In this document: in pieces, positions 23,810-49,960 of the stretch
Layout of the letters: each line of letters opens with the position of its first letter
How positions within the stretch are numbered: the first letter of the stretch is position 1
Assembly (NCBI GenBank): GCA_963971535.1
Contig: OZ020588.1
Coordinates: forward strand, 126,737,870-126,801,869
Length of the DNA: 64,000 nucleotides
Direction of reading: 5' to 3'
DNA from: Notolepis coatsorum
Lineage: Eukaryota > Chordata > Actinopteri > Aulopiformes > Paralepididae
Position numbers and translations under genes: made by a program
The notes under the pieces: model-generated
What the model saw: only the letters and a program-made list of their open reading frames with translations
The model's database searches: none
Told to the model about the DNA's origin: nothing

Positions 23810-24660
23810 TTCGCTCTAAGGCCAGGGACACTTATGGCCTGGACACAGATTTTATAAAAACACACTCCGACGCTCTAGTAAAACCTATCACCATATTAGT
23901 GAATCAATCGATCAGTTCAAAGGAGGTACCATCTTCCTGGAAGGTGGCCACGGTAACACCAATTTTTTTATCTGGTAGCAGGATGTCGGTAGCCAACTAC
24001 AGGCCAATCAGCATCCTATCCACCATATCTAAGGTTGCTGAAAAGTGGGTGTCGAAACTTATGATTAAACATCTGGACAAAGGTCACACCCCACTCGACC
24101 CACTTCAATTTGGCTTCTGCGCTCAGCACTCCACTGAGTCGGCAAACTGTGTTTTTATTGAAAAGGTTAAATATATGTTGGACAAAAACCCATGTAGGTG
24201 CTGTGTTCCTGGATCTTAGAAAGGCGTTTGACACTGTCAACCATCAAGTACTTTTGGCAAAGTTGTCTCATTTCAATTTCTCTGCAGATACAATTCAATG
24301 GTTTAAGTCTTACCTAACAAACAGAAAACAATGTGTCATGGTTGATGGTGTCAAATCTCCTTATCTTGACAATCCAGTCGGTGTGCCGCAGGGATCGATC
24401 CTTGGGCCATTGCTGTTTTCCCTGTACATCAATGACCTGCCGGACATATGCCCTGACTTCAATGTACAGATGTATGCTGACGACGCAGTCATTTTTGTAC
24501 ATGGTAAAAAAACTTACCTGATCTCATGTAACCTCTCAAATGCAATGAACAAGGTCCAACACTGGTTGCAAAACTCATGCCTACTGCTAAATACAAAAAA
24601 AACGGTATGCATGATGTTCAGCAAACGACCAGTCAGAATCACAAGATCTAATGTGTTTCT

Positions 24661-24676
24661 GGGGGGGGGGGGGGGG
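24661..24676. repeat. Poly-G run causing a frameshift
   Basis: A run of about 16 G bases replaces part of the RT coding sequence and shifts the frame. Confidence 0.85.
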
Positions 24677-25215
24677 AATTGGAATTGGTTTCCCATTTCA
24701 AGTACCTCGGCATCATCTTGGACTCGAACCTATCCTTTAAGAAACATGTCAAAAAAGTGAAACACACAATTCATTTTAATTTAGTTAATTTTAGACAAAT
24801 CCGGCCTTTTTTAACAGTTGATGCTGCAAAAACTTATCTTCATTGCATGATATTCTCACATATTGAATACTGCTTCACAATCACAAACTGGTCATTTGCG
24901 GGTGTCACTGTCATGAAACACATCGAACAGCTTTATCATAGAGCCATCAAGGTATTTGCAAGGAAACCATTGGCATACCACCATTGCAATATTTTGAAAC
25001 AATATAGCTTTTTGAGCTTTGAAAATTTCAAAGTCTTAAAAGCTCTTGTTTCATCTACAAATGTCTACATGGATTAGTTCCCCCTCCTGTACAGGAATTC
25101 ATCTACAAAAAAAGAAACACTGGACTCTGCACCAGGTCAGACACCAGAGGTGACTGCATGGTCCAAAGTAGACTGACCACGTTTGGCCAAAACGTCCTGT
25201 CCATAAAAGGCAGTC

Positions 25216-25231
25216 AAACATGGAACAGTCT
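25216..25231. repeat. L1-A target duplication, left copy
   Basis: AAACATGGAACAGTCT; the identical right copy is at 49634-49649, 24.4 kb away. Confidence 0.9.
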
Positions 25232-25402
25232 GGAGGCGCTAGTGAGCGGTGAATGGAGTAGTCACATTTTTCTGAGCTCCCTCCTCAACTTCTAATTTGG
25301 TATAAAAAACACACGTTTATCTAACAGTTTGCTTTCAAAAGTATCAACAGACTAAATATAACACTACCGCCGTGGAAAGTTGAGATTATATGGAATTTAC
25401 CG

Positions 25403-26299
25403 ATGGGAAAAGGCCAAACAAACAAAAAAAAGGCAACCGCAGCTGGCAAACGACAAACAGGCATAGCCACTACGAGACAAGCAGCAGCAGCCCAAACATC
25501 TGACGACACTGCCAGCGCTGCTATTCTGGCTGCAATTGAAAGCCAGGGTAAGAGTCTGAAGAAAGCGATGGACGAGACCCGAGTCTCTATCACATCCCGT
25601 TTGGACAAGTTTGAAGCCACTTTGGCATCCCTGCAGTCCGAGCAGAACAGCGTGAAGCAGCTAGTGACGGGGATAGAAGTGACGGTGAACGACCACGACG
25701 CGTGTCTGAAACTCCTGGAAGAATCCCCAAAATCCTTACGGAAGGAAAACACAGAACTCAGGGCTAAGCTCAACGACTTAGAGGGCCGGTCCCACCGGCT
25801 GAAACTCAAATTCGTGGGAATCAAAGAGGGCGAGGAGAAGGGAAGGCCTACTGACTTTGTGAGCGAGTTGGTCCCGCAACTACTTGGCAGTGAAAACTTC
25901 ACCAAGCCAATTAAAGTGGACAGAGCCCATCGTATCCTGCTAGCCAAGCCCGCTGAGGGGGAGAAACCACGCACCATTATCGCCAAGATGCACCACGACA
26001 ATGACAAGGACCGGGTCCTGCATCTCAGCCGCGAGCACGGCTCTCTTTACTACAAAGGATCCAGAGTGTATATTTTTCCGGATTATACAGCAGACATGAT
26101 GACCCAGCGCAGAGCCTTCAGTGATGTGATGAAGACCCTCCGAGAGGCAAATGTGAAATACAGCCTGCGCTTCCCAGCCAAGTTGCGCGTCGAGCACAAC
26201 TCTACTGTCACAATGTTTGGCACCCCGGAGGAGGCTGTGCGCTTTTCCAAGACTCTCTCAACTGATGGACCTGGTCCCAAGCTGGCGGTCTCAAGCTGA
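25403..26299 (+). CDS. L1-A ORF1p-like RNA-binding protein
   Basis: An uninterrupted 298-residue frame that starts 171 bases after the element 5' end. Residues 1-40 are basic. About residues 45-135 form a coiled coil (heptads around KFEATLASLQSEQNSVKQL). The rest matches the L1 ORF1p RRM plus C-terminal domain: LKFVGIKEG, VDRAHRI, PRTIIAKMHH, YYKGSRVYIFPDY and the SLRFPAKLRV block near the end. ORF1p trimers bind L1 RNA and act as nucleic acid chaperones. Stop is TGA. Confidence 0.88.
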   Translation: MGKGQTNKKKATAAGKRQTGIATTRQAAAAQTSDDTASAAILAAIESQGKSLKKAMDETRVSITSRLDKFEATLASLQSEQNSVKQLVTGIEVTVNDHDACLKLLEESPKSLRKENTELRAKLNDLEGRSHRLKLKFVGIKEGEEKGRPTDFVSELVPQLLGSENFTKPIKVDRAHRILLAKPAEGEKPRTIIAKMHHDNDKDRVLHLSREHGSLYYKGSRVYIFPDYTADMMTQRRAFSDVMKTLREANVKYSLRFPAKLRVEHNSTVTMFGTPEEAVRFSKTLSTDGPGPKLAVSS

Positions 26300-26641: not shown

Positions 26642-28999
26642 TTGGCCGTGATGACGCAAGGGGTTAATATATCGGGGGGTGAGAAGCCTATTACGATGGT
26701 GTCATGGAACACTAAAGGATTGGGTAGTGCAGTTAAAAGGGGAAAAGTATTTGCTCATTTGAAAACATTGTCTGCAGATATTATATTTCTACAAGAGACC
26801 CATATAGCTCCAACGGAACAGAGGCGCCTGAGGAAGCACTGGGTGTCACAAGTGTACCAATCTGCTTTTTCTTCCAAAGCAAGAGGGGTTGCTATTTTAT
26901 TTAGTAAATCTGTCCCATTTCAAATGACCACGGTAGTCTCCGACCCCGGAGGCAGATATGTCATGGTGTCTGGTAGCATTAATTCACTACCAATAACATG
27001 CCTGAATATTTATGGTCCTAACATTGACGACCCAAGCCTTTTTCGTAAAATATTTGACATAATCCCTGATCTGAATACCACCAACTTGATTTTAGGTGGA
27101 GATTTTAATTGCTATCTAGATCCCTATCTTGATCGTACGTCCACTCGTCCGCCTCCGACCATTAATTCCGTTGGAGTACTAAACAATTTAATGCGTTCTA
27201 TGAACATAGTTGACATATGGAGATTGCAGCACCCTACAGACAGGGATTATTCTTTCTTTTCCCAGGTCCACAAATCGTATACAAGAATAGACTATTTTCT
27301 TGTCGATGCTAAATTTATCTCTAGTGTGCTGCAAACTAAATATCATAGCATCCTTATTTCAGATCATGCTCCAATCACTATGTTGGTAAAGCTGGCACTG
27401 CCACAGACACGATACAGTTGGCGCTTCAACCCCTCTTTGCTCTCGGAGAAAGCATTTCGGGATCAAATGAGATCTCGACTCATTGAGTTTATGGAGACTA
27501 ATGATACCGGTGATGTCTCCGACACTACACTGTGGGAGTCTCTTAAGGTGGTATTGAGAGGGCACATTATATCTTATGAAGCCTTTGGAAAGAGAGAAAG
27601 ACGTAAGCGTTTGGCTGAGATTGAGGCACGGCTCCCCTCGCTGGAGCAGGTTTACAGACTATCACAATCCCAAATGGACCTAAATAACATTTTAAAATTG
27701 AAGTATGAATACAATTCTATTCTGGGCAAGCAGGTTAGTACCCTCCTCCTTAAACTCAGACAGAAGCACTTTGAACTAAGTGATAAACCAGACAGACTGT
27801 TGGCTAGGCAGCTGAGGGGTGTACAGGCCAGCCAGGCAATTCATAATATCAAATCTATATCGGGCAGCTTGCTGACTAACCCTAAAGACATAAATGACCG
27901 TTTTAAAGAATTTTATACTGGCCTTTATACCTCTAGATGCCATGCCCCAGACTCTGAGGTTGAGAGCTTCCTGGACAATATTGATATGCCAGTGCTTAGT
28001 GATAAGGCAAGGGATGAGCTAGATGCTGATTTCAGCCTGCAGGAAATAACAAGTGCAATAAAGTCTTTCCCTAGTGGGAAGGCCGCTGGCCCGGATGGGT
28101 ATGGGGCGGAGTTTTATAAAGCTTACAGTGACATTTTGGCCCCTCTACTTCTTAGAATGATTCAACATTCTATCACTAATAATGTCTTCCCTGACTCCCT
28201 TTACGAAGCGAATGTGTGCCTTTTACTCAAGAAAGGTAGGGATGGGACGGATCCAGCAGTGTTCCGGGCTATACGTTTGTTAAATTTTTACCAAAAGACA
28301 GTTGCCAAGGTGTTGGCCACTAGGTTGGCTCAGCATGTCGGATTTCTCATCCACTCCGACCAAACGGGATTCATTCCTGGCAGGCTTGCTTTTTCTAATA
28401 TTCGGAAATTACTAAACATATTGTACTCTAACCAAAGAAAGGACACTATGCCGGCGATCATATCACTTGACGCTGAAAAGGCATTCGACCAGAACGAATG
28501 GAAATATATGTTCAGTGTCCTCCAGCACTTTGGTTTCGGTGACAGGTTTCGTTCTCTTATTGGAATGTTGTATGCTCATCCGAGAGTTTCCATTCTTACC
28601 AATTCTGATAGATCTGACTCCTTCCCACTCCATCGAGGCACCCGACAAGGATGGTGTATTAGTCCCTTACCTTTCAATTTAGCCCTCGAACCCCTGGCTA
28701 TCAGTATCAGGAGTCATCCCAACATCACAGGAATAAAGTTGGGAAAGTATGAGAGCCGTATCTCGCTATATGCGGATGATGTGGTCCTGTATCTTGCTGA
28801 TCCTGCCTCCTCCGTCCCATGCCTCCTAGATTTAATCAGGCAGTTTGGTACTTTCTCTGGTTACTCCATTAACTGGGAGAAAAGTGTGTTCATGCCCATC
28901 TCAGGGAGCCTAGACTCTTCCTTTACTGTAAAATAGAACATGACCACTTCACCTATCTGGGAGTTGTTATACCAAAGGATCCCACACTCCTATTTAAAC
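26642..28999 (+). pseudogene. L1-A ORF2, endonuclease and reverse transcriptase part
   Basis: A 764-residue frame. The apurinic-type endonuclease has WNTKG near residue 22, QETH near 51, GGDFN near 152 and SDHAP near 241. The RT has SGKAAGPDGYG, SDQTGFIPGR, ISLDAEKAFDQNEW (first catalytic Asp), RQGWCISPLPFNLALEPL and the YADD box near residue 716. A stop at 28934 results from a frameshift just upstream: in the next frame HDHFTYLGVVIPKDP continues up to the hAT insertion at 29000. In GCISPLPF the usual Leu-Phe is altered, a further sign of decay. Confidence 0.9.
28992..28999. repeat. 8-bp target duplication of the palindromic element
   Basis: ATTTAAAC here and at 31409-31416. The coding frame of L1-A ORF2 reads through if one copy and the element are ignored. 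Confidence 0.9.
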
Positions 29000-29707
29000 G
29001 AGTAGGGTCGAGCTGCAGCCTCGGAGCCTCGGTCCAGATTGGTACTTCCGCCCTGCCACAGGACTATTAGTCCTGTGACAGGGCTATGCGCTGATTGGCG
29101 GAAAGTACGGAAGTATCTCGAAGTACGTCTGACGTATCTCGAATTACGTCTGACGTTTCTCTACGTTTAGCGAACATTAAACGTTGTATTCATAAAATAA
29201 TATAAAATCAGCAGCATGGGGAGGGCCGGGGGGAGGGGAGGTACAGGTAGTAGAAGACATAGAGGTACAGGTCACATAATTATAGTACAGTGGAGAAGTA
29301 AAAATAGAATAAAAAGGCAGTGTAAACAATATACAATATTATTAACTCTAATAATAACACGCCTCGCGGGCTCATTATAATAGAGCCGTGGGTCTGCATT
29401 GTATAGAGCGGATCCCCCGGCCGTATTCAAGCGCTGGAGCGCTTTGCGATGGATCAAACTGTATTAATATAGTAGTTGGCTAGTTGCGCGCTTCTGGCCA
29501 CCTCCCGCAGTGCGCGCATACACACATACTGTCTGTAGCTATATAGTACGTGCAAAATTTATTGTCAAGAGCCAATCGCACAGGTTGCCTCATCTCATCT
29601 GGCTCTGCAAATAGATCTAGAGTCTGAATATCATATATAGCCTGCTGATGATCTCTCTCGAGTCAAATCCATTCTGAGAACGGAATGCAGTGCCCGCGAC
29701 GAGGGTC

Positions 29708-29780
<73 letters not shown>
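29708..29780. repeat. (TGAT)n microsatellite
   Basis: About 18 units of TGAT. On the minus strand this is the (ATCA)n tail of the LINE-tail segment that follows. The right arm has only about six units (30669-30698). Confidence 0.93.
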
Positions 29781-30130
29781 AATTGTATTAACAGATCATG
29801 CTGGACCTACAAAAGGCCTTTGACACTGTCAATCACTCCATTCTTGATTGAACATTTTATTAACAGATTGCAGAATGGGTACAGTACAGCTCAATACACA
29901 CAATTGTTAAGGGGATGCAGACCAGAGAAATACTTTTGTCTTGTTTACATCAGGGTCCCCCATTTTCAATTCATCATAACATATGACATACACGACATAC
30001 AGATAGACAGTACTGCTACATCTATACATTTATGACATACCAGATTTGCAAATACAGTATTGTTTGTGATACAAAAAGAGTCCAGAAAAGAGAGTATATA
30101 CATTTGACGTAGAAACTGTACATTGGAGGA
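29781..30130 (-). mobile_element. LINE-tail module with embedded RT scrap
   Basis: Read on the minus strand, this is a LINE 3' UTR ending GCAATCTGTTAATAAAAT and ATCA repeats. Between two copies of the ATTAACAGAT junction lies a 48-base scrap (29800-29848) that on the plus strand encodes LDLQKAFDTVNHSIL, a clear reverse transcriptase motif. The same module occurs at 39730-40107 without the scrap. Confidence 0.7.
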
Positions 30131-30346
30131 GGTTGGGTAGGTGGGGGGGGGGGACTGTACATTGGAGGTGGTTGGGGGGGGGTCGGGTAGGAGGGGTGGG
30201 TGGGGGGGGGACACTGTACAACTGTACAAGCAAAACTGTACATTGGAATATTGACAACCATACTTGGTCATTTACTGTACATTGGAGGGGGTTGGGTTAC
30301 AACACAGGAGCATATATAAACAACAGTACAGTACTGTTTCTCATTC

Positions 30347-30667
30347 CTGTACTGTTGTTTATACTCTGCTCCTGTGTTGTAACCCAACCCCCTCCAATGT
30401 ACAGTAAATGACCAAGTATGGTTTTGTCAATATTCCAATGTACAGTTTTGCTTGTACAGTTGTACAGTGTCCCCCACCCCTCCTACCCGACCCCCCCCCC
30501 AAGGCGAAAGTCTTTCTCTGGTCTGCATCCCCTTAACAATTGTGTGTATTGAGCTGTACTGTACTGTACCCATTCTGCAATCTGTTAATAAAATGTTCAA
30601 TCAAGAATGGAGTGATTGACAGTGTCAAAGGCCTTTTGTAGGTCCAGCATGATCTGTTAATACAATT

Positions 30668-30700
<33 letters not shown>

Positions 30701-31408
30701 GACCCTCGTCGCGGGCACTGCATTCCGTTCTCAGAATGGATTTGACTCGAGAGAGATCATCAGCAGGCTATATATGATATTCAGACTCTAGATCTATTTG
30801 CAGAGCCAGATGAGATGAGGCAACCTGTGCGATTGGCTCTTGACAAATAATTAAGCACGTACTGTATAGCTACAGACAGTATGTGTGTATGCGCGCACTG
30901 CGGGAGGTGGCCAGAAGCGCGCAACTAGCCAACTACTATATTAATACAGTTTGATCCATCGCAAAGCGCTCCAGTGCTTGAATACGGCCGGGGGATCCGC
31001 TCTATACAATGCAGACCCACGGCTCTATTATAATGAGCCCGCGAGGCGTGTTATTATTAGAGTTAATAATATTGTATATTGTTTACACTGCCTTTTTATT
31101 CTATTTTTACTTCTCCACTGTACTATAATTATGTGACCTGTACCTCTATGTCTTCTACTACCTGTACCTCCCCTCCCCCCGGCCCTCCCCATGCTGCTGA
31201 TTTTATATTATTTTATGAATACAACGTTTAATGTTCGCTAAACGTAGAGAAACGTCAGACGTAATTCGAGATACGTCAGACGTACTTCGAGATACTTCCG
31301 TACTTTCCGCCAATCAGCGCATAGCCCTGTCACAGGACTAATAGTCCTGTGGCAGGGCGGAAGTATCAATCTGGACCGAGGCTCCGAGTCTGCAGCTGGA
31401 CCCTATTG
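30347..31408 (-). repeat. Right arm of the 2.4-kb palindrome
   Basis: The inverted copy of 29000-30331, including the LINE tail (about 30500-30605), the RT scrap in reverse (about 30606-30655) and a shorter CAAT run. Confidence 0.9.
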
Positions 31409-31416
31409 ATTTAAAC

Positions 31417-32058
31417 TGAACTTTGGTGAAATGGTCTCAAAATTGAAGAAAAATATGGAGAGTTGGAGAATTTTGCCAGTGTCTTTGGTGGGGCGCGTGA
31501 ATGTCATAAAAATGGTGGTTCTCCTCAGGTTCCTTTACCTTTTTCAGAGCGTGCCTATTTTTTTGACTGCCTCTTTCTTTAAACAGATAGACACTATACT
31601 TCTGCCATTTGTCTGGGGCTATAAAGCACACCGTATTTCAAAAGCACACTTGCAGAAGCCAAAGCATATGGGGGGGCTGGCCCTGCCGGTATTCCAGCAC
31701 TACTACTGGGCTGCTAATGCAAGGGCCATGACCTTCTGGCAAGATTACTTCATAGGTGATGCTACAGTAGCCATGGACGCCCCCAGGTGGCTAGACATGG
31801 AGGCGCATGTGAACTTAAAAAGCTCTCTTCCTGCAATGTTATTTTCTAAGTGTGATACGATTAATAAGATGGCTCTCAACAATTGTATCCTTCGGAACTC
31901 ACTGAGAATACTGAGTCAAATCAAAAGGGTTTTCAAAGTACCTTCAACCTCGGCATATGCTCCAATATGTGATAATCATAATTTTCCCCCTGGTCAATCT
32001 GATATTGTTTTTTCACTATGGAAGGGAAAGGGACTGGCCACTATCAAAGATCTATATG
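31417..32058 (+). pseudogene. L1-A ORF2, middle part
   Basis: The frame continues directly from LLFK before the palindromic element with LNFGEMVSKLKK, then KAHLQKPKHMGGLALPVFQHYYWAA (conserved in L1-group ORF2 after the RT). It is uninterrupted up to the Gypsy insertion after codons IKDLY. Confidence 0.88.
32054..32058. repeat. 5-bp target duplication of the Gypsy element
   Basis: ATATG here and at 37065-37069. L1-A codons continue across it (DLY / VDRHFASF). Confidence 0.88.
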
Positions 32059-32393
32059 TGGCAATTCCAGGTGTAGGGGTGGCAGAATAAACAACACACA
32101 GACAGGTTGCAGTTCCCAAAATCATACTCTTTATTTTCTATTTAAATAATGATCGCTTGCTGGCGTTAATCTGTCGGCCGGGCGGCGTCTCCGCTCTGTG
32201 GCCTCTCGCCTTGCGCTGCTACGGGGGACTGAGAGGAGACTCCTCGGCTCCGTTAAGTCCCCCCTCCCCAACAGGCGCACCGCGCCGTGATTCGATAATC
32301 ACTCCTGATGGTTCTCTAGTGACAGGTGCGCCATTGGGTCGCCACGTAACGCCCATCAATCACCAAGCCCAGGGGTGGCTTGGGGTTGCCACA
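32059..32393 (-). repeat. Gypsy 3' LTR (335 bp)
   Basis: It runs TGGCAATTCC to GGTTGCCACA on the plus strand. Compared with the other LTR I count about six substitutions and the absence of a 36-base block near 32331. Confidence 0.9.
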
Positions 32394-32432
32394 GTACCCC
32401 CGCTCCAGCTCCGACCGTCGGGGAAGAGCGTC

Positions 32433-33044
32433 CTACGCCCAACAGGCATCCTCCCTGGAGAGGGCGTCTGCGTTGCCATGCGCCACCCCGGACCTGTGGA
32501 TGACAGAAAAGTTAAACGATTGTAACTCCAGAAACCATCGAGTCACCCTGGCATTGGTCCCCTTTGTCTTGGCCATCCAGACGAGGGGGGCGTGATCCGT
32601 CACCAGCGTGAAGCACCTCCCCAGCAGATAATAACGGAGCGTCTCCAGTGCCCACTTAATTGCCAGACCTTCGCGCTCCACCGCAGAATAATTGCGCTCG
32701 TGTGGCAGTAGCTTCCTGCTCACATACAAGATTGGATGTTCCTCACCCTCCAGCTGCTGGGAGAGGACCGCTCCCAGTCCCACCTCTGATGCATCTGTCT
32801 GTACTGTCATCTCCTTGTCGAAGTTCGGGGAGACCAGCACCGGTCCCGAACAGAGGGCCGTCTTGAGGTCCTCGAACGCCGCCTCCTCCTCCGGTGTCCA
32901 CTTCACCGTGAACGGGCGCCGCGCCTGGGTCAGATCTGTGAGGGGAGCAGCGCGAGCAGCGAAGTTAGGGATAAACCTCCTATAATAGCTTGCTAGCCCA
33001 TTAAATGTCCTGACCTGCTTCTTGGTTAAAGGGCGAGGCCACAC
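32433..33044 (-). pseudogene. Gypsy RNase H domain
   Basis: A frame of about 200 residues that starts with the RT connection region (TKKQVRTFNGLASYYRRFIP). It continues through TDASEVGLGAVLSQ, YSAVEREGLAIKWALE and VTDHAPLVW, and ends in the usual GNADALSR motif. RNase H degrades the RNA strand during reverse transcription. It is one frameshift away from the RT frame (near 33045). The stop after ACWA looks like the normal end of pol, about 40 bases before the 3' LTR. Confidence 0.9.
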
Positions 33045-33864
33045 CCTTTTTTATTGTGAACCCCAGGTACTGTGCCTCTTCTAGTCCCAGCCTGCATTTC
33101 TTTGGGTTGGCGGTGAGACCCGCCTCCCGGAGGGCACCCAACACCGCTCTCACCTTTTGGAGGTGGGAGTCCCAATCTGACGAATGAATGATAATGTCAT
33201 CGAGATATGCGGCTGCATAATCCCGATGGGGCCGTAGTACTCTGTCCATCAGCCTCTGAAAGGTAGATGGCGCCCCATGCAGGCCAAACGGGAGAACTTT
33301 ATAGTGCAACAGCCCGTCTGGGGTGGAGAAAGCCGTCGTCTCCCTCGAGGCGGGGGCCAGAGGGACTTGCCAATAACCCTTCGTTAGATCTAGTGTTGTG
33401 ATGAACCTGGCCTGGCCCAGTCTATCAATGAGCTCATCCACTCTAGGCATGGGATAGGCGTCAAACTTTGAAATGTCATTAAGCTTCCTGAAATCGTTGC
33501 AGAACCTGGTTGTTGAGTCGGGTTTCGGCACTAAAACAATTGGACTAGACCACCTGCTATGAGACTCCTCAATTACTCCCATCTCCAGCATGACCCGCAC
33601 TTCTCTTCTTACGGCCTCTCTTTTTGCCTCTGGGATACGATAGGGCTTCAGCTTTACCTTGTCTCCCGGGCTGGTAATAATGTGGTGCTGGGCCAATGTG
33701 GTGCGGCCCGGCGTGGCCGAAAACACGTCCCGGTTCTGTTGGACCAGCTCCCGAAGCTCCTGCCGTTGGGTCGGGGACAACTGTTCCCCGATGGGAACAT
33801 CGGCCGCCTCTGCCACCTGCTGCGCAAAAGGGGGGAGAGGGGGGGGGGGGGGCGAGAGCAACAC
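33001..33864 (-). pseudogene. Gypsy reverse transcriptase domain
   Basis: The frame carries EMGVIEESHSRWSSPIVLVPKPD, FCNDFRKLN, FITTLDLTKGYWQ, LPFGLHGAPSTFQRLMD and the catalytic YLDDIIIHS, all in the order of Ty3/Gypsy RT. It loses frame after YLGFTIKKG near 33045. Its 5' side begins at a G/C run (33836-33852) where the frame from the integrase ORF has been lost. Confidence 0.92.
33839..33852. repeat. Poly-G run inside pol
   Basis: A G-rich run of about 19 bases with one A (33834-33852). It lies at the border between the integrase and RT regions and probably contributes to the frame change. Confidence 0.8.
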
Positions 33865-33919
33865 ATCCCGGGCATGCCAATTCTTTAACAGGTTAACATG
33901 GTATAACTGTCAATGCTTC

Positions 33920-35803: not shown

Positions 35804-35819
35804 AGACTTCGGGGTAGTT

Positions 35820-38729: not shown

Positions 38730-38895
38730 GAGAGACTTCCGGTTTAGCTGCATTATGTAGCGCACGCATTTGGTAATAGCTCCGCTCCCATTAACGTTAA
38801 TTTAGTTTAAAAACCTTATTTGGACAATACCAAAAGAGATTAGACCACATCGTATGTATTGATAAGACCTTCTACTAACTATATCAAAAGACAAC

Positions 38896-39729: not shown

Positions 39730-40107
39730 TTGATTGATTGATTGAAAAGTTTATTAACAGATTGCAGAATGGGTACAGTACAGTACAGCTCAATACATAC
39801 AATTGTTAAGGGGATGCAGACCAGAGAAAGACTTTCGTCTTGTTTACATCAGGGTCCCCCATTTTCAATTCATCATAACATATATGACATACATGACATA
39901 CAGATAGACAGTACTGCTACATCTATACATTTATGACATATCAGATTTGCAAATACAGTACTGTTTGTGATACAAAAGTGTCCAGAAAAGGAGTGTATAT
40001 ACATTTGGCATAGAAACTGTACATTGGAGGAGGTTGGTTGGGTGGGGTGGGGTTGGGTGGGTTGGGTGAGGGCTGTACATTGGAGGTGGGGGGGGGGGGG
40101 GGGGACT
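39730..40107 (-). mobile_element. LINE-tail fragment inserted in L1-B ORF1
   Basis: Minus-strand fragment of about 378 bases. Its 3' end is the CAATCAATCA tail (39731-39744 on the plus strand), preceded by TTAATAAACTTTT. Its 5' side is a C-rich stretch with CCTCCAATGTACAG repeats. ORF1 codons resume at LRKTAIRDD. I see no target duplication, unlike the other insertions. Confidence 0.75.
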
Positions 40108-40303
40108 CTGCGGAAGACGGCAATAAGAGATGACATCATCAAAATTGCTCGCATCCAAAGGGGGAAGCTGAAACATGGTGAACACTCAATATTTATCTAC
40201 AAGGATCTTTGCAAAGAGGCCATCGCTCGGCGTCTCCCCTACAAGGAGGTGATGCAGAAATTGTTCATGTCTGGCCTCAGACCAAGGCTAGCATACCCGG
40301 CAC
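40108..40303 (+). pseudogene. L1-B ORF1, middle part
   Basis: It encodes LRKTAIRDDIIKIARIQRG through IYKDLCKEAIARR to GLRPRLAYPA, the C-terminal domain of L1 ORF1p. The frame is the same as before the LINE-tail insert once that insert is ignored. Confidence 0.85.
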
Positions 40304-40342
40304 CAGTGGCGGACTGGGACACAAATTCAGCCCGGGACATTC

Positions 40343-40411
40343 AGACGCACCAGCCCACACACCGGCCCACGCACCGGCCCACGCACCGGCTCCGAAACCG
40401 GCCCACACAAC
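40343..40411. repeat. Short block of the 12-bp GGCCCACGCACC repeat
   Basis: About five imperfect units near the left end of the hAT element. The same unit makes the large array near its right end. Confidence 0.8.
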
Positions 40412-40521
40412 GGCCGTTATGAAACACTTGTCCAGTATTAAACAACCCAAGGCTGTGGCTAAGGAGTCAACATCAGGGAGACCAAATCTACACACCGCCC
40501 CTAGATGTGCACTCATGCACA

Positions 40522-40523
40522 GT

Positions 40524-40557
<34 letters not shown>

Positions 40558-40564
40558 ACACACA
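40522..40564. repeat. (CA)n microsatellite
   Basis: About 15 CA units followed by a short GACACACACA stretch. Confidence 0.93.
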
Positions 40565-40837
40565 CATATATATACCGTTACTTCCTGTCATTGGCATATG
40601 TTTTTTTTTTACTAACATCTTAGTGCCTCATTAGCCTAGGGATTAAGGATACATGAAGTATTAACTACACCATAATAATATTGAGGTTTTGATCCATAGA
40701 AAAGGTCTGTGCTAGACAATTTCAGTTAGATTGGATTTATTGTCCTTTAATTTGGCACTCATGACATTAGTTGCTTGCCGTTTAATCAACATCGAAAGAC
40801 CCCCCACTTCCTCCCAGACACCCATTCCAAGAGCTTG

Positions 40838-41096
<259 letters not shown>

Positions 41097-41104
41097 TCTG
41101 TCTG

Positions 41105-41219
41105 TCTGGACTGGGCTCTCTCTCTCCCCTCAGGGTCAGCTGTGCTGGACTGGGCACTCTCTCTCCCCTCAGGGTCAGCTGTGCTGGACTGGGCGCTCTC
41201 TCTTTCCTCAGAGTCAACT
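41105..41219. repeat. 37-bp tandem repeat, three copies
   Basis: The unit CTGGACTGGGCTCTCTCTCT... CAGGGTCAGCTGTG occurs three times with single-base changes. Confidence 0.9.
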
Positions 41220-41234
41220 GCATAAGAAGAACAT

Positions 41235-41295
41235 CACCAATCAATAATAATGGCTTGAATTCATACAGCGTTTTTCAGCCTTTTGAAAACACCCA

Positions 41296-41380
<85 letters not shown>

Positions 41381-41830
41381 TTATTCAGTCATCATCTCAC
41401 ACAATACAATATACACCATCATTTAACAATATTTGATTTTACAGTGACTGAGAAGGTACAGACTGAAGCAATGCTTATATAGCCTATGCCTGTCCTATAT
41501 TCTTAACAAAAATTTAAAAAATTAAGACTCCAAAACAGTATTCTAAAAGAAAATAGCAAAAAAAAAACAGTATTATTCACCCTTGTAGTTTTCAAAAATA
41601 GCTTTACAAACCATTTTCTTAAAAACCAAAAGCGAATTACTCATTCTTAACTGTATATCAGCATTGTTCCACAAAGCGCTTCACAGAAACCATCAAGCAT
41701 TCACACTCACACAGTCATACGCTACTGGTGGTCGTGAGCAGCATCAGCAAACACAGCTTTCCTGTGGCAGACTGACGGAATCATGTCTGCTATTCAGCGC
41801 CAACCACCATCAACAACCTTCATAAATACA
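41235..41830 (+). mobile_element. Fish retroposon fragment split by (TAG)n
   Basis: TGAATTCATACAGCGTTTTTCAGC and, further on, CAAAGCGCTTCACAGAAACC with CATTCACACTCACACAGTC resemble an abundant fish repeat. A (TAG)n tract of about 27 units (41298-41379) interrupts it. Confidence 0.45.
41298..41380. repeat. (TAG)n microsatellite
   Basis: About 27 uninterrupted TAG units. Confidence 0.96.
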
Positions 41831-42373
41831 TTCAACATTAATGGAATAGGCTAACTACCAACTTAGCTGTAGCAGTTAGCTGTTATATGCAATCACATTT
41901 GTTTAACTACGGGGTAGTAGTTGACCTAGTTGTTAGCTTAAGCTAGTTAGCTGTGGTTATCTACAAACATGTAGATGAGACTAATCGAGAACATGGCTAA
42001 CTGTTGGGAATTCTAAGGTACATCTTATTTAAGCATGTAAAATGGCAACTAATCAATTCAATCAATTAGATTACCAATATTATATCAACATGAAAATTTG
42101 AAAGGGAACATAATAGTATTTTATTTGAGTATTTACTATTATAATATTAGTAGCCAATTAATTTGCAGCCCGTCCTAGGTTCTGATTGGCTCTCTAGGTT
42201 AGCACTTTAGCTTCTGATGCTGTGGTGGGCACTAGTCCTAACATTGCTAACTAAACTTTTAGTCAGAGAAAAAACGTCACGAGTCACGACTATTTACGTC
42301 CACGTGCTGTAAGGAATCAGGAATACGGAAAGCACATTGTCTTGTAATAGAATGACTGAAATCACTGCAAGAA

Positions 42374-42625
42374 CTAGTATAGGCTAGCTAGCCCCCATGA
42401 ACCGGCACACACCAACAGTAGAATATGCACTAGGCTACTGCACGCACCTGTCATGTTACTGTTGGTTCCTTCCACTTGAACTTCATCATCATTAGCAGCA
42501 GCAGCTACTCTAACGCCAGCCCTTCCTCTACTAAACATGTCTGTAATTTTAGAACATTGTTCTGCGTCTTTTACTAGCAATTCTAGCTTTTTCAGCTCCA
42601 CCCTTTCTTTTTTTGCATTCTCCAT
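42374..42625 (-). pseudogene. hAT transposase N-terminal fragment
   Basis: The minus-strand frame has an N-terminal Lys/Glu-rich helix followed by LLVKDAEQCSKITDMFSR, matching the start of a class of hAT transposases in which a KCxKLTDMF-like motif precedes a linker and then the zinc finger. After about 60 residues the similarity ends. It is the only trace of the enzyme that would recognise the CAGTGGCGGACTGG ends. Confidence 0.55.
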
Positions 42626-42689
42626 TTCTGCGCTTCTAGGCCTACTCGCGGTTGGGAGGAAACGTGAATCTCATTCACTGATGTCTCAT

Positions 42690-43494
42690 GTCTCATTCAA
42701 GACTGGCTAACAAAAGCATGTCTTTCACTTAACACCAAGAAAACAGTGTGTATGATGTTCACAAAGTCACCAGTAGAGGTCACTCACTCTAATGTGTTTC
42801 TGGGAGAGGCGGAGCTGGACATTGTACATTAATTCAAGTATCTTGGGGTCACATTGGACTCTACATTGACCTTCAAAAAGTAATGTGAAGAAAGTGACAA
42901 ACACAGTCAAGTTTAACATCGAAAACTTCAGGCAGATCAGGCCCTGCCTGCCAGTTAATGCTGCAAGGATGTTTCTGCATTCAATGATTTTATCACACAT
43001 CGAGTACTGTTTTATCAACTGGTCTCTTTCATATGTCACTACTCTTACACCAATAGAATTACTCTACAAAAAAGCCATAAAAGTATTTGATAGGAAACCA
43101 ATTTCATTTCATCACTGTAATGTTTTAAAAAAACATAACATGCTAAGTTTCGAGAATTTCCAAGTTTTCAAATATACTTGCTTCATGTACAAGGTTCTGC
43201 GTGGACTTGCCCCTCCCCCATTGAATGAGTTCATCCAACAGAAAGCAGACACTGGCATTACCACCAGGGCCATCAGTAGAGGGGACTGTAAGGTGCCTTT
43301 TCGGTATACTACCATTGCAAAAACTGTGTTCTCTGTTAAAAGTGGTAACTACTGGAATAGCCTACCAGTTGTGATTAGAGAGTGCCCTACATACTCCATG
43401 TTCAAGACCCATCTTAAACTGCATCTTAAGGCAAACCAGAACTGTGATCATTTTTAATCTGATTTAGTTTATGCAACTTGTTTATTGTTTTATT
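42690..43494 (+). pseudogene. 5'-truncated LINE (RT C-terminus) inside the hAT element
   Basis: The fragment starts at the end of the RT palm (ACLSLNTKKTVCMMF) and runs through YLGVTLDSTLTF, NFRQIRPCLPVNAARMFLHSMILSHIEYCF and SFHHCNVLKKHNMLSFENFQVF to the last ORF codons near 43457. It is the same family as the host LINE at 23.8-25.2 kb. One frameshift lies near 42880. I could not see a target duplication. Confidence 0.85.
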
Positions 43495-43497
43495 GCC

Positions 43498-44068
43498 GGC
43501 CCACACACTGGCCCACACACCGGCCCACATAATGGCCCACACACCGGCCCACATACGGCCCACACACTGGCCCACACACTACACCGGCCCACACACTACA
43601 CCGGCCCACACACTGGCCCACACACCGGCCCACACACTGGCCCACACACCGGCGCACACACCGGCCCACACACTGGCCCACACACTGGCCCACACACTGG
43701 CCCACACACTGGCCCACACACCGGCGCACACACCGGCCCACACACTGGCCCACACACTGGCCCACACACCGGCACACACACTGGCCCACATTAGTGGCCC
43801 ACACACCGACTCACACACCGGCCCACACACCGGCCCACAGACTGGCCCACATACTGGCCCACACACCGGCCCACACACCGGCCCACATACTGGCCCACAT
43901 TAGTGGCCCACACACCGACTCACACACTGGCCCACACACCGGCCCACACACTGGCCCACATTAGTGGCCCACACACCGACTCACACACTGGCCCACACAC
44001 TGGCCCACACACTGGCCCACACACCGGCCCACATTAGTGGCCCACACACTGGCCCACACACTGGCCCA
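43498..44068. repeat. 12-bp minisatellite GGCCCACACACY
   Basis: About 46 tandem units of GGCCCACACACC or GGCCCACACACT, with higher-order variants containing CATTAGTGGCCCACACACCGACTC repeated at least three times. It lies next to the right end of the hAT element. The long repetitive frames on both strands are by-products. Confidence 0.95.
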
Positions 44069-44113
44069 AAAAAAAAGTTTAAAAAAAAAAAAGTTAAAAA
44101 AAAAGTATAAAAA

Positions 44114-44144
<31 letters not shown>

Positions 44145-44148
44145 TTGG
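44069..44148. repeat. Poly-A / poly-T inverted pair
   Basis: A-rich tracts (44069-44117) directly followed by a run of about 27 T bases, able to form an A-T hairpin between the minisatellite and the hAT terminus. Confidence 0.85.
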
Positions 44149-44215
44149 ACCAGCCCACTTTGGTTCCGGCCCATCGGGATTCGTCCCGAACGTCCCGATG
44201 GCCAGTCCGCCACTG

Positions 44216-44351
44216 CCCGGCACTGTTATCGATCGTGGGCAGGGACAGCCGTAGGGTAGGATTACACACGCCTAAAGAAGCCAAGGAATACTGGAATCGA
44301 CATGGAGCAGAACCCCCAAGGCAGAACGAAACACTGTCTGAAAACAGATAA
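44216..44351 (+). pseudogene. L1-B ORF1, C-terminal part
   Basis: After the hAT element and its 8-bp duplication, the frame continues as LLSIVGRDSRRVGLHTPKEA and ends RQNETLSENR with a TAA. Adding the three ORF1 parts gives 386 codons including the stop, all in one frame. Confidence 0.85.
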
Positions 44352-45517
44352 GCCTTCTCATCTCTCTCTTTCTCTGTGTATATCAGTATTAGAATGACTT
44401 TATCTGGGCTCAACAAAAGTAGCAGATGATATGCATGCCGGCTACACCAAGGCATATTGTGTATAATATGATTCGTAATGCATTATATTTTCAGACCTCT
44501 GGTCTCCGTGGAGACAAGAACATATCATTGACAATAAGAACAATCTGGAATATTCTGGGCTTATCGCTCGACTGCTCTGGGTCACTTAGAAATCTCCCGA
44601 AAATACTAGTAGTCATGAACCCTGGGTAGGAAGATCATTCTGGAACATAACAACAGTCTGTTAGTATAGTGTATTCTACAACCTTCTAGAATATAATGCA
44701 CCATAACAACGAAGGCTTGCAACTCTAACATTAACATCCGGTGTGTAAAAGCATAAGCATATGATCAATTGACTGAAGTTTAATCAGGCCTTAATAAAAC
44801 TTAAAAAAAAAAAAATCAACCACAGCTAAACGTATGAGCACAACAAGGTTATTCTAACAATTTAAGTAATCACTCCACTGATGTAGAGATTGGCACATTG
44901 TAGCTCTAAAAGGCTCTGTTTTTCTCTTTTATTTAATTACTCAATTATGTTCTAGTGGCTTCTCCACGTTGAGTTTTATTCTATCTCCCACTCCTTATTT
45001 TTATCTTTTTTTTCTCTCTCTTTTATCTTACATTGTTCTTTCCCATTGTTCTTCAAGGTGTTAATGTTTCTCTACAATCTTTTCCTTTTTTCTGATGTTT
45101 CCTACATAAGTTAGTAGAGGGTTCAAATGAATATATCGATGAAAGTTTATTCTTTTTTTTTTCATTTTTCATAATATTTCATTACAGTAAGGGAAGGCGC
45201 AAGACCAAAAGCGACATTCTATTGTATTAGAATGAAAATGTTAGATCCTATGGCAATTAGCATAGGAAGATTAGGATTACAAAGCTCAGTTTGGGCAATC
45301 CGGTGGCCTAAGGGAGGGAGTCATACGCAGAGGATGTGTTTTTGGAACACAGGCCTGTACGACTCTCTGGGTGAGGGGAAAATAGGGGATTTTTATTTGT
45401 ATATATATATGTTTTTAAGCTCGGCTCTCAACGGGACCTCAATAATTGGATGTACATCTATTGTAGCTTCGCACTCCAGAAGCATTACCAAAAACTACAC
45501 AAAAACATGCATAGATT
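44352..45517 (+). other. L1-B inter-ORF region
   Basis: 1,166 bases with no strong coding signal. It is unusually long for an L1 inter-ORF spacer. The minus strand has no recognised repeat. A short upstream frame at 45232-45525 has no domain I know. Confidence 0.5.
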
Positions 45518-48500
45518 ATGGCTAGTTTGAATATAATGATATGGAACACTGGTGGGATAAACAAACAACACAAACGCAAAAGCGTGCTCACACTGATGAA
45601 AAAAGAACATGTGGACGTGGCTCTACTAAGCGAAACGCACATTTTAGAGGAAGACATAGATATGTTAGCGGATAACACATACCATAATATTAGTCACTCT
45701 TCTTTTGGTACGAGAACTCGAGGTGTAGCCATAGTCGTCAGACGTAAGTTAAATATCGAATTAAAGGGGGTATGGTCGGATGCGGAGGGGCGTATAACTA
45801 TAGCTAGGATTGTACACAATAACAGGAAAATAGCGTTGGCAGCGGTATATGCCCCAAATTTGTACGAAGAGGGTTTCTTCACTACACTAACCGATGAAAT
45901 GTTAAACCATCCCGATTACTCATTTATAATAGGTGCGGATTTTAATGCCATTTGGAATCCAAGGATGGACAAATCTTACCTCGCCTTTTCCAGCGAACAA
46001 AAAAATTCATCTAAAGCATTAAAGGATTGGTCAAAGATTACAGGTGTAAATGATTTATGGCGTTCACTTAATCCCACGACCCGAAAGTACTCTTGTCGAT
46101 CGGCGAGACATAACACATTATCCAGAATTGATTATGTCTTTGCATCCCCGAGACTATTTGATAAATATGAAGTGGAAATGATACCCAATGCACTATCAGA
46201 TCACTGTTATTTACTCCTAAAAGCAACATTTGGTATACTATCTTCCCGGGCCCCAAGATGGCGTTTTAATTCGATGCTGCTTAATAACAAGGAATTCATT
46301 ACACAACTCAAAGAAGCTCTCACAGTATTCCTACGGGAGAATGCAAACTCTGTGCAAGACCCCAGAATAATATGGATGTCGGTAAAGGGTATGATCAAGG
46401 ATTTCACTGATAGATTTTCCTCCATAATGCGCAAGAATCAATGCACAAAACTGTCTGAACTGGAAACGCTTTACTCAACGTTATTTAATTCTTTAAAATA
46501 CAACAACTCAACTAGACTAGAAAATCAAGTTAACGTACTAAAAACAGAGATCAATGCCATATACAGACAACAATCGGAAATGCAAATACGCAGCACAAGA
46601 CAACAGCAGTACTCCCAAGGTTCTAAACCTAGTCACCTATTAGCCATGCGATTAAGAATTAATGCAAAATTTGCAGATATAACTGCCATTAGAAAACAAC
46701 AAGTACTTGAAACAGACCCCAAAATAATAAACGATACATTCAAAGAATTCTACTCCGACTTATATAAATCAGAAACGACCTTTGATCAAAACAAAATGGA
46801 CACATATCTTAATCAAATTATTCTCCCTAAACTTTCGGAGGATGACGCTAAACAGTTAGAAGCACCGATCACACTAGAGGAACTCAAGAAGGCCATATCC
46901 GAAATGAAAAATGGTAAGGCTCCTGGAAGAGACGGTATCCTATCAGAAATGTACCTTTCTTGTTGGGACATAATTGGACCCTTATTACTAAATATGATCT
47001 TATACTCAGTCAAGGAGGGGAGCTTCCATAAACACGACAATATTGCACTCATTTCAGTACTTCTCAAAAAAGACAAAGACCCCACCGAGTGCGGTAGTTA
47101 CAGACCCTTAAGCCTCCTCGGAACCGATGTCAAACTGTACTCTAAGGTATTAGCCATCAGATTACAAAAGCATATGACGTCTTTAGTTCATCCGGACCAA
47201 ACTGGCTTCATAAGAGGTCGCCTGATCACTGATAACATAAGACGAATACTGCACGTACTAGATGCAGACAAAGAAGACACCATACCTAAGGCGATGCTGT
47301 CCCTGGATGCTATGAAAGCCTTTGACAGGCTGGAATGGTCGTATCTATGGGCAGTATTAGAAAGGATGGGGTTAGGAAAAGGATTCATTGATATGATTAA
47401 AGTATTATACAAAGACCCATCGGCCATGATTACAACAGGTACATTCATCTCCAAAATCTTTCCGGTATCACGCTCAGCCAGACAGGGTTGCCCTCTTAGT
47501 CCCGGACTATTCGATCTATCATTAGAGCCTTTAGCACAATATATAAGACAATCCCAATCCATAGAACCAATCGTAATCAAGGGCACACAACATAAAATTA
47601 GTTTATATGCGGACGACGTAATATTGTTCATGCAAAGCCCCAACACCACATTGCCTCATCTACTCAAGTTGATAGAGAACTTTGGTGATTTATCGGGATT
47701 TAAAATAAATTGGCCGAAGTCGGCTTTCCTTCCACTTAACACCCAGGCAAAAAAAGATACAACCCTCCCAGGTGAGATACCCATGGTAAAACATTTTAGA
47801 TGCTTGGGAGTGGAAATATTTCCCACCATAAGACAAACGGTGAAGCACAATTACACAAAAATACAGAACAAAATCAAAGACGACCTGGACAGGTGGGCAA
47901 AACTTAAAAACTCAGTACAGGCAAGGGTATCAATAGTTAAGATGGATGTACTACCTAGAATCAACTTCATCAGTTCAATGATACCGTTACCCCCTCCAGA
48001 GGGTTACTGGAAAAGATTACACTCCTCCACATACAAATTTATTTGGAATAACAAACCACCTCGCATAAAAAGATCCACCGCACAGAGAAATAAAGCAAAC
48101 GGTGGCATGGCAGTTCCAGATTTTTTCCAATATTTTAAGGCATACACATTAAGACCATTGACAATATGGTTTGATCCCCAGGCATTGGTATCCTGGAGAA
48201 AATTGGAAGAAAACATAGTAGCCCCACATAGACTGAAGGACATAGCACACACTAAACTACCAATCAAGCACTGTGAGCGGAAATTTGGCCCCATAATTAC
48301 CCATGCAATCCGGATATGGCGTGAAACACAAAAAAAATATCCTAACCCACAAGAATGGCATAATCATACTCCCTTATTCAATAACAATGCACTCTTAATT
48401 GAAAAACGTCCTATAAGATTCCCTATATGGGAAGAGCAAGGCATACACTCATTAGGGGATATTTTTAATAACCAGGGTTTTTGTAGTTATGGAGAAATAT

Positions 48501-49282
48501 GCACAAAGTTTAACCTCACCGAGTCCACATGGCTTTTTTACATACAGTTACGCCTATGTTTGAGGTCTCACGGTGTTCCATTAGACATACCAGTTGAACA
48601 CCACAGATACCACAAATTCTTCTATGAAAGAGAAACATCGAGAGGTTTTGTATCAGGTTTTTATTATCAATTACTAACGTCCTCGTATGAAACCCTCCAA
48701 CTAGACTCTGTCTGGAGGAGGGATATACCAGACCTGGAAAGTGACTTTGATTGGCAAGAAGCATGGGCAAATGTCCGTCTTACATCAAGGAACCCGGACC
48801 ATCAACAAATCAATCTTAACTATATTCACAGGACATACTTGACTCCTATAAGACTGAACAGAATGGGCCTTAAACAAGACTCAAAATGCTCCCAATGTAC
48901 AAATGGAGACGAAGGGACATTTATGCACATGTATTGGGACTGCCCACCAGTTAAGGCATTCTGGAAAGATGTGACCCATCAATTATCAAAACTCGTATCT
49001 TGGAATATACCAGTACACCCCTCTGTATTACTATTGAATGATGTTTTTGAGTTTGCAGTAAATCCACAGCTAAAGAGATTGGTTTTATCGGGTATCACAG
49101 TAGCTAAAAAACTGATCGCATCACGCTGGTTTCAACCGGAAAAAATTTGCCGGAAGGTTTGGTTTCTTACATATCTCGATGTGATTTATCAAGAAATATC
49201 TACAGCAAGAATTCTGGGTCTCAACGAATCCAAAATGTCAATGTGGTTAGAAGTGGTGGAGAGAATAAAAGCTAGCTTATAA
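45518..49282 (+). CDS. L1-B ORF2 protein: endonuclease and reverse transcriptase
   Basis: A complete 1,254-residue frame. The endonuclease domain (residues 1-240) keeps N10 (WNTGG), E39 (SETH), D141 (GADFN), D205 and the SDH at 227-229. The RT has [29 protein letters not shown] (D597), RQGCPLSPGLFDLSLEPL and the YADD box at 697-700. A C-terminal CSQCTNGDEGTFMHMYWDC knuckle lies at 1124-1142. No stop, frameshift or lost catalytic residue is visible. The protein would nick DNA and copy RNA at the nick. It belongs to the L1/Tx1 side of L1. It is the only complete replicase in the window. Confidence 0.95.
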   Translation: MASLNIMIWNTGGINKQHKRKSVLTLMKKEHVDVALLSETHILEEDIDMLADNTYHNISHSSFGTRTRGVAIVVRRKLNIELKGVWSDAEGRITIARIVHNNRKIALAAVYAPNLYEEGFFTTLTDEMLNHPDYSFIIGADFNAIWNPRMDKSYLAFSSEQKNSSKALKDWSKITGVNDLWRSLNPTTRKYSCRSARHNTLSRIDYVFASPRLFDKYEVEMIPNALSDHCYLLLKATFGILSSRAPRWRFNSMLLNNKEFITQLKEALTVFLRENANSVQDPRIIWMSVKGMIKDFTDRFSSIMRKNQCTKLSELETLYSTLFNSLKYNNSTRLENQVNVLKTEINAIYRQQSEMQIRSTRQQQYSQGSKPSHLLAMRLRINAKFADITAIRKQQVLETDPKIINDTFKEFYSDLYKSETTFDQNKMDTYLNQIILPKLSEDDAKQLEAPITLEELKKAISEMKNGKAPGRDGILSEMYLSCWDIIGPLLLNMILYSVKEGSFHKHDNIALISVLLKKDKDPTECGSYRPLSLLGTDVKLYSKVLAIRLQKHMTSLVHPDQTGFIRGRLITDNIRRILHVLDADKEDTIPKAMLSLDAMKAFDRLEWSYLWAVLERMGLGKGFIDMIKVLYKDPSAMITTGTFISKIFPVSRSARQGCPLSPGLFDLSLEPLAQYIRQSQSIEPIVIKGTQHKISLYADDVILFMQSPNTTLPHLLKLIENFGDLSGFKINWPKSAFLPLNTQAKKDTTLPGEIPMVKHFRCLGVEIFPTIRQTVKHNYTKIQNKIKDDLDRWAKLKNSVQARVSIVKMDVLPRINFISSMIPLPPPEGYWKRLHSSTYKFIWNNKPPRIKRSTAQRNKANGGMAVPDFFQYFKAYTLRPLTIWFDPQALVSWRKLEENIVAPHRLKDIAHTKLPIKHCERKFGPIITHAIRIWRETQKKYPNPQEWHNHTPLFNNNALLIEKRPIRFPIWEEQGIHSLGDIFNNQGFCSYGEICTKFNLTESTWLFYIQLRLCLRSHGVPLDIPVEHHRYHKFFYERETSRGFVSGFYYQLLTSSYETLQLDSVWRRDIPDLESDFDWQEAWANVRLTSRNPDHQQINLNYIHRTYLTPIRLNRMGLKQDSKCSQCTNGDEGTFMHMYWDCPPVKAFWKDVTHQLSKLVSWNIPVHPSVLLLNDVFEFAVNPQLKRLVLSGITVAKKLIASRWFQPEKICRKVWFLTYLDVIYQEISTARILGLNESKMSMWLEVVERIKASL

Positions 49283-49609
49283 TGGTAGTGTCTGGTTAGG
49301 AGTGAGGGATAATGGAGGTACTATCCAAGGAGGGGTCCGGGAGGGGGGGGTTCGAGCTGGAGCATATGTGTGTAGGGTTTTAGAAAATAGGTATTAGGGG
49401 TATATCCTGTATAAGGCATTTGTATAATTGGTAATTTCGTTGGATATACACTGTATACGGTAAAATATTATTATAGACTTTTTTTTGTTTTCTGTTTCTG
49501 TACTTGCATGTCATTTTAGCTACCTTGATTGTTGGTTTCATTATGCATTGTGTGTTGAGTACTGACTTTTAATAATTTTTGTTTTGCAATAATAATAAAA
49601 AAAAAAAAA
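49283..49609 (+). other. L1-B 3' UTR and poly-A
   Basis: About 310 bases containing a G-rich tract (GGGAGGGGGGGTTCGAGC) and ending AATAATAATAAAAAAAAAAA. The G-rich run just after the stop also occurs in the L1-C copy. Confidence 0.8.
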
Positions 49610-49633
49610 AAAAGCTGAAAATAAAATATTATA

Positions 49634-49649
49634 AAACATGGAACAGTCT
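49634..49649. repeat. L1-A target duplication, right copy
   Basis: AAACATGGAACAGTCT, identical to 25216-25231. Confidence 0.9.
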
Positions 49650-49960
49650 CCCCATTGCCATAAGGGAAAGCCCCACCCTTGCTTCTTTTATAGGGCAACA
49701 AAAAATGGCTGAAGTCCAACCAGTCATGTGAACACATGTGACATGCTGTAATGTATTTGTACATTTTCTTTACTGTTTTTTTGTGACCAGTTTTTATGTA
49801 TTTGTACATTTCTTACTGTTTCTATGAGTCCTGTTTTTATGTTTGGGGACAACGGATGGAAATTAGCCTCGTGCTAAATCCGGCAATTTTTACACTCCAC
49901 AGTGTTCATTAATTTTGCATTGTCCCGTCCAAATAAACGAATTAAAATAAAAAAAAAACT
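49650..49960 (+). pseudogene. Host LINE, C-terminus and 3' UTR
   Basis: The first 80 bases encode PIAIRESPTLASFIG and continue the WNSL frame interrupted at 25231. The UTR contains GGGGACAACGGATGGAAATT and AGCCTCGTGCTAAATCC and ends CCAAATAAACGAATTAAAAT with an A run. The ending is typical of a common fish LINE. Confidence 0.85.

Follow-up and report, generated by a model that had tools for sequence, protein, structure and literature searches.

The 64-kb window of Notolepis coatsorum contig OZ020588.1 analysed here carries, at positions 23810-49960, a 26-kb nest of inserted elements. An old long interspersed element (LINE) is split by an element classed as L1 (L1-A), which is itself split by four guests: a palindromic hAT-type element, a Gmr1-like Gypsy element, a hAT-type miniature inverted-repeat transposable element (MITE) and a second element classed as L1 (L1-B). 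The first open reading frame (ORF1) of L1-B is in turn split by an L2-type LINE tail and by a second hAT-type element, within which lies a LINE scrap (Table 1). The initial annotation had proposed these nested insertions, and the host/guest relations are borne out by target-site duplications (TSDs), domain matches and collinear tblastn blocks. We consider it very probable that the whole stack consists of independent transposable-element insertions, nested one in another.

Table 1. Elements, coding features and target-site duplications of the stack (window coordinates; RT, reverse transcriptase; TIR, terminal inverted repeat; LTR, long terminal repeat)
Feature	Position	Strand	Remarks
Old LINE, left part	23810-25231	+	frameshifted; RVT_1 (1e-24) in 24110-24760; start 23810 taken from the initial annotation
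L1-A with guests	25232-49633	+	24402 bp in all; net length 5502 bp without guests and second TSD copies
L1-A ORF1	25403-26299	+	matches LINE-1 ORF1p
L1-A ORF2, first part	26642-28936	+	matches LINE-1 ORF2p
Palindromic hAT-type element	29000-31408		2.4 kb, near mirror image; TSD ATTTAAAC
L2-type LINE tail with (TCAA)n, left arm of palindrome	29708-30142	-	right-arm counterpart at about 30500-30700, without 230 nt
RT scrap DLQKAFDTVNH, left arm of palindrome	29795-29845	+	mirror copy 30603-30653
Gmr1-like Gypsy element	32059-37064	-	TSD ATATG; LTRs at ends
hAT-type MITE	37927-38495		569 bp; TSD CTATGTAT
L1-B with guests	38730-49609	+	about 6582 bp net
L2-type LINE tail in L1-B ORF1	39730-40107	-	(TCAA)n 3' end; ends approximate because of a G run
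Second hAT-type element	40304-44215		3912 bp; TIR CAGTGGCGGACTGG; TSD CCCGGCAC
LINE scrap of old-LINE family, inside second hAT-type element	42695-43495	+	right end placed by eye, at minisatellite start
L1-B ORF2	45518-49282	+	open, 1254 aa; endonuclease and RT
Old LINE, right part	49650-49958	+	A-rich 3' end, placed by eye
TSD of L1-A, 16 bp	25216-25231 (left copy), 49634-49649 (right copy)	+	AAACATGGAACAGTCT
TSD of palindrome, 8 bp	28992-28999, 31409-31416		ATTTAAAC
TSD of Gypsy element, 5 bp	32054-32058, 37065-37069		ATATG
TSD of MITE, 8 bp	37919-37926, 38496-38503		CTATGTAT
TSD of L1-B, 15 bp	38715-38729, 49610-49624		AAAAGCTGAAAATAA
TSD of second hAT-type element, 8 bp	40296-40303, 44216-44223		CCCGGCAC

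The six TSDs claimed earlier were all found, each an exact direct repeat at the two ends of its element and of a length typical for the class. For the MITE the 8-bp duplication exists, but its boundary shifts one base to the right, from ACTATGTA to CTATGTAT. The two flanks share the 10-mer TACTATGTAT, which contains both words, and the latter is preferred because the 8-bp reading leaves hAT-like ends (TGGTG.../TAATG...) and because a blind scan, described below, returned the same boundary. The chance of meeting a repeat at a prescribed boundary (within 20 bases on each side) is about 5e-7 for 16 bp, 2e-6 for 15 bp and 0.03 for 8 bp, while the 5-bp repeat of the Gypsy element is weak alone and reaches 0.001 once tied to the exact LTR ends. 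Exact repeats of at least 15 bp appeared somewhere within 27.5 kb in 9 of 20 Markov-1 sequences; long repeats are thus not rare by chance in a region of this size, and it is their position at the element ends that counts.

The blind scan covered positions 20000-54000 and combined an 8-bp TSD with at least 9 of 12 matching TIR bases at spacings of 80 to 12000. It gave 27 hits, against an average of 2.4 and at most 4 in 30 Markov-1 controls, and recovered all three hAT-type elements of the stack with their boundaries. The other 24 hits comprise 13 minisatellite pairs, 8 pairs within or between inverted repeats, one MITE outside the stack (22148-22646) and two unconvincing long-distance pairs. 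Since the excess over the controls comes mostly from other repeats, the worth of the scan lies in its recovery of the three elements and their boundaries. No further insertion with TIRs and a TSD inside the stack was convincing in this single scan with these parameters. No RNA family reached the gathering threshold, and no tRNA was found.

The two hosts of the inner guests are L1-clade elements by protein similarity. ORF1 of L1-A matches four LINE-1 ORF1 chains (E 1.4e-7 to 5.9e-6), and the first part of its ORF2 matches LINE-1 ORF2p with an E value of 9.4e-144. In L1-B, residues 4-1208 of the 1254 encoded by ORF2 match LINE-1 ORF2p, which we take to be the human protein, at E 3.7e-136. This comparison drew on solved structures only, among which other LINE clades are hardly represented, and the R2 chains matched far more weakly. 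L1 TSDs measure about 7-20 bp and lie at a T-rich nick; if the start of the duplication marks the nick, both sites here are T-rich, TTT/GA for the 16-bp and TTTT/AT for the 15-bp duplication. The likeness to L1-clade LINEs thus extends from ORF1 (L1-A) and the endonuclease-RT of ORF2 to the TSDs of 15-16 bp.

L1-A and L1-B belong to distinct families, with 34% amino-acid identity over the aligned endonuclease-RT part and only weak similarity between their ORF1 regions. When L1-B ORF2 is searched against L1-A by tblastn, three collinear blocks are obtained (amino acids 4-741, 776-983 and 988-1215). The first break, at 741/776, coincides with the palindrome and a frame change, and the second, at 983/988, with the Gypsy element. 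The outermost host, the old LINE, reads WNSLPIAIRESPT in one frame when joined at 25231/49650, and the family matches of its left part downstream of RVT_1 fall in frames 1 and 3. For a TSD of the old LINE itself only two 8-mers came up, AAAAAAAC and TCACACAG, neither of them convincing. Beyond the stack, at 50852-53796, lies a frameshifted and inverted relative of L1-B ORF2, 90% identical to it, the two arms standing 1.4 kb apart and forming a 3-kb inverted repeat. Differences between them amount to 7.8, 4.5 and 12.0% at codon positions 1, 2 and 3, a pattern as would be expected for copies of a family formerly under coding constraint.

The interrupted coding regions give a second line of evidence. 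At each coding junction, the 90 bases on either side of the insertion were joined and the translation was scored against a homologue elsewhere in the window. In all four cases one joined frame is open across the join and the other two contain stops; at the L1-A join the open frame runs on until a stop close to the outer end of the right flank. The joined score exceeds that of either single side throughout: 121 against 77 and 42 for L1-A in the old LINE, 61 against 34 and 46 for the palindrome in L1-A, 100 against 37 and 66 for the Gypsy element in L1-A, and 46 against 35 and 29 for the second hAT-type element in L1-B ORF1. A first offset control, with ten offsets and one flank size, placed the exact join best at all four junctions. 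In a wider control of 21 offsets and four flank sizes, the exact join of L1-A ranked first in every flank size, and that of the Gypsy element ranked first in three and second in the remaining one.

The Gypsy guest is classed as Gmr1-like on its SCAN-type gag (PF02023, 3.9e-8) and on an integrase placed before the RT: on the minus strand, H2C2 and rve (35803-33920) precede RVT_1 (33864-33001) and RNase H (33044-32433). According to passages in PMC8220671, Gmr1 elements usually have the integrase upstream of the RT. SCAN is present in over half of Gmr elements only, as a section of PMC4131045 puts it, and the SCAN domain is described in part of PMC3424704 as derived from a Gmr1-like gag. The element resembles the Gmr1 clade of Ty3/Gypsy in its domain order, its gag and its 5-bp TSD, an assignment made without a phylogeny and with no difference noted. 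Its LTRs differ at 6 of 335 aligned sites and by a 36-nt indel.

The three remaining guests with TSDs would be hAT-type elements, a label placed on their 8-bp duplications and terminal repeats only; with this limit on the hAT label, the families named in the initial annotation (L1, Gmr1-type Gypsy and hAT-type) hold. All three have hAT-like TIRs, strongest in the second hAT-type element (14 of 14 bases) and weakest in the palindrome. The hAT consensus TSD has T at position 2 and A at position 7; two of the three duplications show both bases, and the third only the A. The 8-bp TSDs and the ends of CAGTG and TGGTG type are shared with hAT superfamily elements lacking a transposase and with MITEs. 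No hAT transposase was recognised among the ORFs of at least 120 aa inspected by eye, a Pfam scan having covered part of them. Unlike the usual hAT element or MITE, the palindrome carries LINE pieces in its arms, and no transposase ORF was seen in any of the three. Near both ends of the second hAT-type element lies a 12-bp minisatellite of the GGCCCACACACT type, in about 6 copies at 40345-40415 and about 46 at 43498-44068.

Several results weigh against the proposed nesting, or against parts of it. In the wider offset control, the exact join of the palindrome ranked 3, 5, 2 and 2 of 21 offsets over the four flank sizes, and in the 90-base test the out-of-frame offset +8 scored 64 against its 61. 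The exact join of the second hAT-type element ranked second in all four flank sizes, beaten by the in-frame offset +3 in three of them and by the out-of-frame +1 in the fourth. Even at the L1-A junction, with 90-base flanks, the out-of-frame +1 join reached 119 against 121 for the exact one. The two smaller LINE pieces were likewise found without TSDs: a search of the flanks of the scrap in the second hAT-type element gave only a 6-mer, and the tail in L1-B ORF1 is flanked by no repeated word of at least 6 bp. Lastly, a single scan of viral contigs for relatives of L1-B ORF2 gave 13 pattern matches, none of which was confirmed.

The +1 alignment at the L1-A junction includes LKSNQSCEH against LKANQNCDH of the LINE scrap, which suggests that the old LINE carries a later frameshift further to the right. 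When the flanks are cut to 60 and 48 bases, the exact join scores 90 and the best wrong frame 74. The claim that protein frames resume exactly at the junctions is therefore strong at L1-A and at the Gypsy element, two of the four, and weak at the palindrome and the second hAT-type element. Because the available homologues are remote, similarity does not fix the latter two junctions; their TSDs do.

Both smaller LINE pieces are real. The scrap that the initial annotation placed within the second hAT-type element matches the old-LINE family by tblastn (42695-42805 and 42885-43454), but no TSD marks it as a separate insertion, and it may have arrived inside the second hAT-type element. The tail that was said to split L1-B ORF1, which from its look we take to be of L2 type, has family copies elsewhere in the window (29844-30142, 60906-61113 and 61606-61705), and the similarity of L1-B ORF1 to L1-A ORF1 continues on both sides of it; its exact ends cannot be fixed, and here too the split lacks a TSD.

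The most unusual part of the stack is the palindromic element. Its arms of about 1.2 kb end in the tips GAGTA and CAATA and differ at 9 of 955 core sites, against 5 of 50 terminal sites (Fisher p 0.0004), with a 50-base cut between tip and core that was picked after the alignment had been seen; omitted from the comparison are 61 aligned sites by the axis (8 differences), where the arm strings overlap. Indels of 40, 230, 8, 5 and 2 nt also separate the arms. Each contains the 51-base RT scrap, which is matched by the RT of the old LINE at 70.6% over 17 aa (tblastn, E 0.001 in each arm). The scrap is inverted relative to the sense of the tail and is followed by a second short tail. Twin priming is a known mode of LINE insertion, and the scrap and tails look like a twin-primed L2 insertion. 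The axis, near 30336, holds the self-complementary word CAGTACTG, a plausible snap-back point.

These features lead to the tentative hypothesis, to which we give less than even weight, that the element records the formation of a palindromic DNA transposon. LINE pieces would have entered a hAT-type element, and an inverted copy of its interior would then have been made about the self-complementary axis, while the two original tips stayed unaltered. The presence of tail and RT scrap in both arms implies that they were there before the arms were made alike. Of the histories for this palindrome, we regard this one as the likeliest; its mechanism is one that we infer.

Taken globally, the observed boundaries, duplications and domain homologies, together with reading frames that speak strongly at two of the four coding junctions, lead to an insertion history in which we infer the enzymes from the element class. 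An old LINE with its RVT_1 domain would have been interrupted first, by the near-full-length L1-A through target-primed reverse transcription, leaving the 16-bp TSD. L1-A would then have received its four guests: the palindrome by cut and paste (8 bp), the Gypsy retrotransposon through its integrase (5 bp), the MITE (8 bp) and the near-full-length L1-B (15 bp). Afterwards, ORF1 of L1-B would have taken up a truncated L2-type LINE and also the 3.9-kb hAT-type element, which has no transposase ORF and contains the LINE scrap. The stack gives no indication of a host function.

By nesting, the old LINE is older than L1-A and L1-A older than its four guests, and L1-B is older than both the L2-type tail and the second hAT-type element. 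The relative clock of at least seven insertions announced earlier thus retains its seven insertions, six of them with TSDs, but amounts to a partial order, with four levels and possibly a fifth. It ranks neither the four guests of L1-A among themselves nor the tail against the second hAT-type element. An ordering of the four guests by divergence was dropped, as the measures (LTRs, 6/335; palindrome core, 9/955 and clustered; L1-B ORF2, no lesion) are small and differ in kind. Lesions do decrease along the nested order: the old LINE has at least two frame changes, L1-A ORF2 a single one near 28930 plus an in-frame stop at 37606-37608, and L1-B ORF2 none, but the counts are too low to serve as a test.

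An assembly artefact, either a misjoining of repeats from separate loci or, for the palindrome, a folded-back read, would fit a repeat-rich region with an inverted L1-B relative close by, and palindromes are a known artefact of long reads. We nevertheless hold it to be most improbable: the sole N run of the window lies at 1301-1500, outside the stack; misjoins are not expected to yield class-specific TSDs at both edges of six elements; and the palindrome ends at TIRs, has different flanks and has arms that differ by substitutions as well as by the five indels. The clustering might reflect a preferred landing site or a trap resembling a piRNA cluster instead of neutral accumulation. The rest of the window is indeed element-rich too (a BEL/Pao ORF at 10625-16345 and LINE RT ORFs at 7409-8479 and 57475-58440), but the six TSDs share no common word by eye, no formal motif test having been made, and we judge this explanation unlikely.

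We do lean, with modest confidence, towards the view that some guests were not inserted singly: the second hAT-type element or the palindrome would have brought in the LINE scrap, and possibly further internal pieces, as cargo. The scrap has no TSD and adjoins the 12-bp minisatellite, and the pieces repeated in both palindrome arms are older than the likeness of the arms. The six elements with TSDs fall outside this reading, and nothing against it was found for the cargo pieces themselves. It is compatible with successive nested insertion, and both can hold together.

Nested insertions are an established record of relative age, treated by the TinT approach in parts of PMC3014933 and by interruption analysis in parts of PMC2517846, and the stack is a good example of this known kind. 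As in the nested-cluster and TinT analyses outlined there, older elements are split by younger ones and the order follows from who interrupts whom; those studies pool many pairs genome-wide, whereas here a single locus combines mixed element classes. The guests look recent because the LTRs differ at so few sites and L1-B ORF2 is without lesion, pointing to recent activity of L1, hAT-type and Gmr1-like elements alike in the source genome. As a worked example the locus is clean: TSDs allow its main host/guest steps to be checked, protein frames do so for two of these steps, and homologues are present within the window itself. The palindromic element could serve as a test case for the origin of inverted duplications within DNA transposons; otherwise the stack raises no new question.

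The window holds further elements outside the stack. At 22148-22646, a 483-bp hAT-like MITE with TIRs TAGGGCTGACCC/TAGGGCTGTCCC and the flanking word CCATTTAT interrupts a 22-bp minisatellite, the two parts of which occupy 22052-22155 and 22637-23403; the duplication beside the MITE is weak evidence because the flank belongs to the repeat unit. On the minus strand at 9136-17689 lies a BEL/Pao element with an open ORF of 1906 aa (Peptidase_A17, 1.6e-45). It is apparently young: the direct repeats on either side, of 1.3 kb each (9136-10437 and 16390-17689), share 99.5% identity. Related LINE RT ORFs at 7406-8479 and 56411-58440, 71.5% identical in DNA over about 970 bases, both match Pfam ALKBH8_N downstream of RVT_1, a model that probably takes in LINE sequence. 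Finally, a tandem pair of 187-bp units, 95% alike, occupies 54667-55038, with related pieces at 56281-56405.

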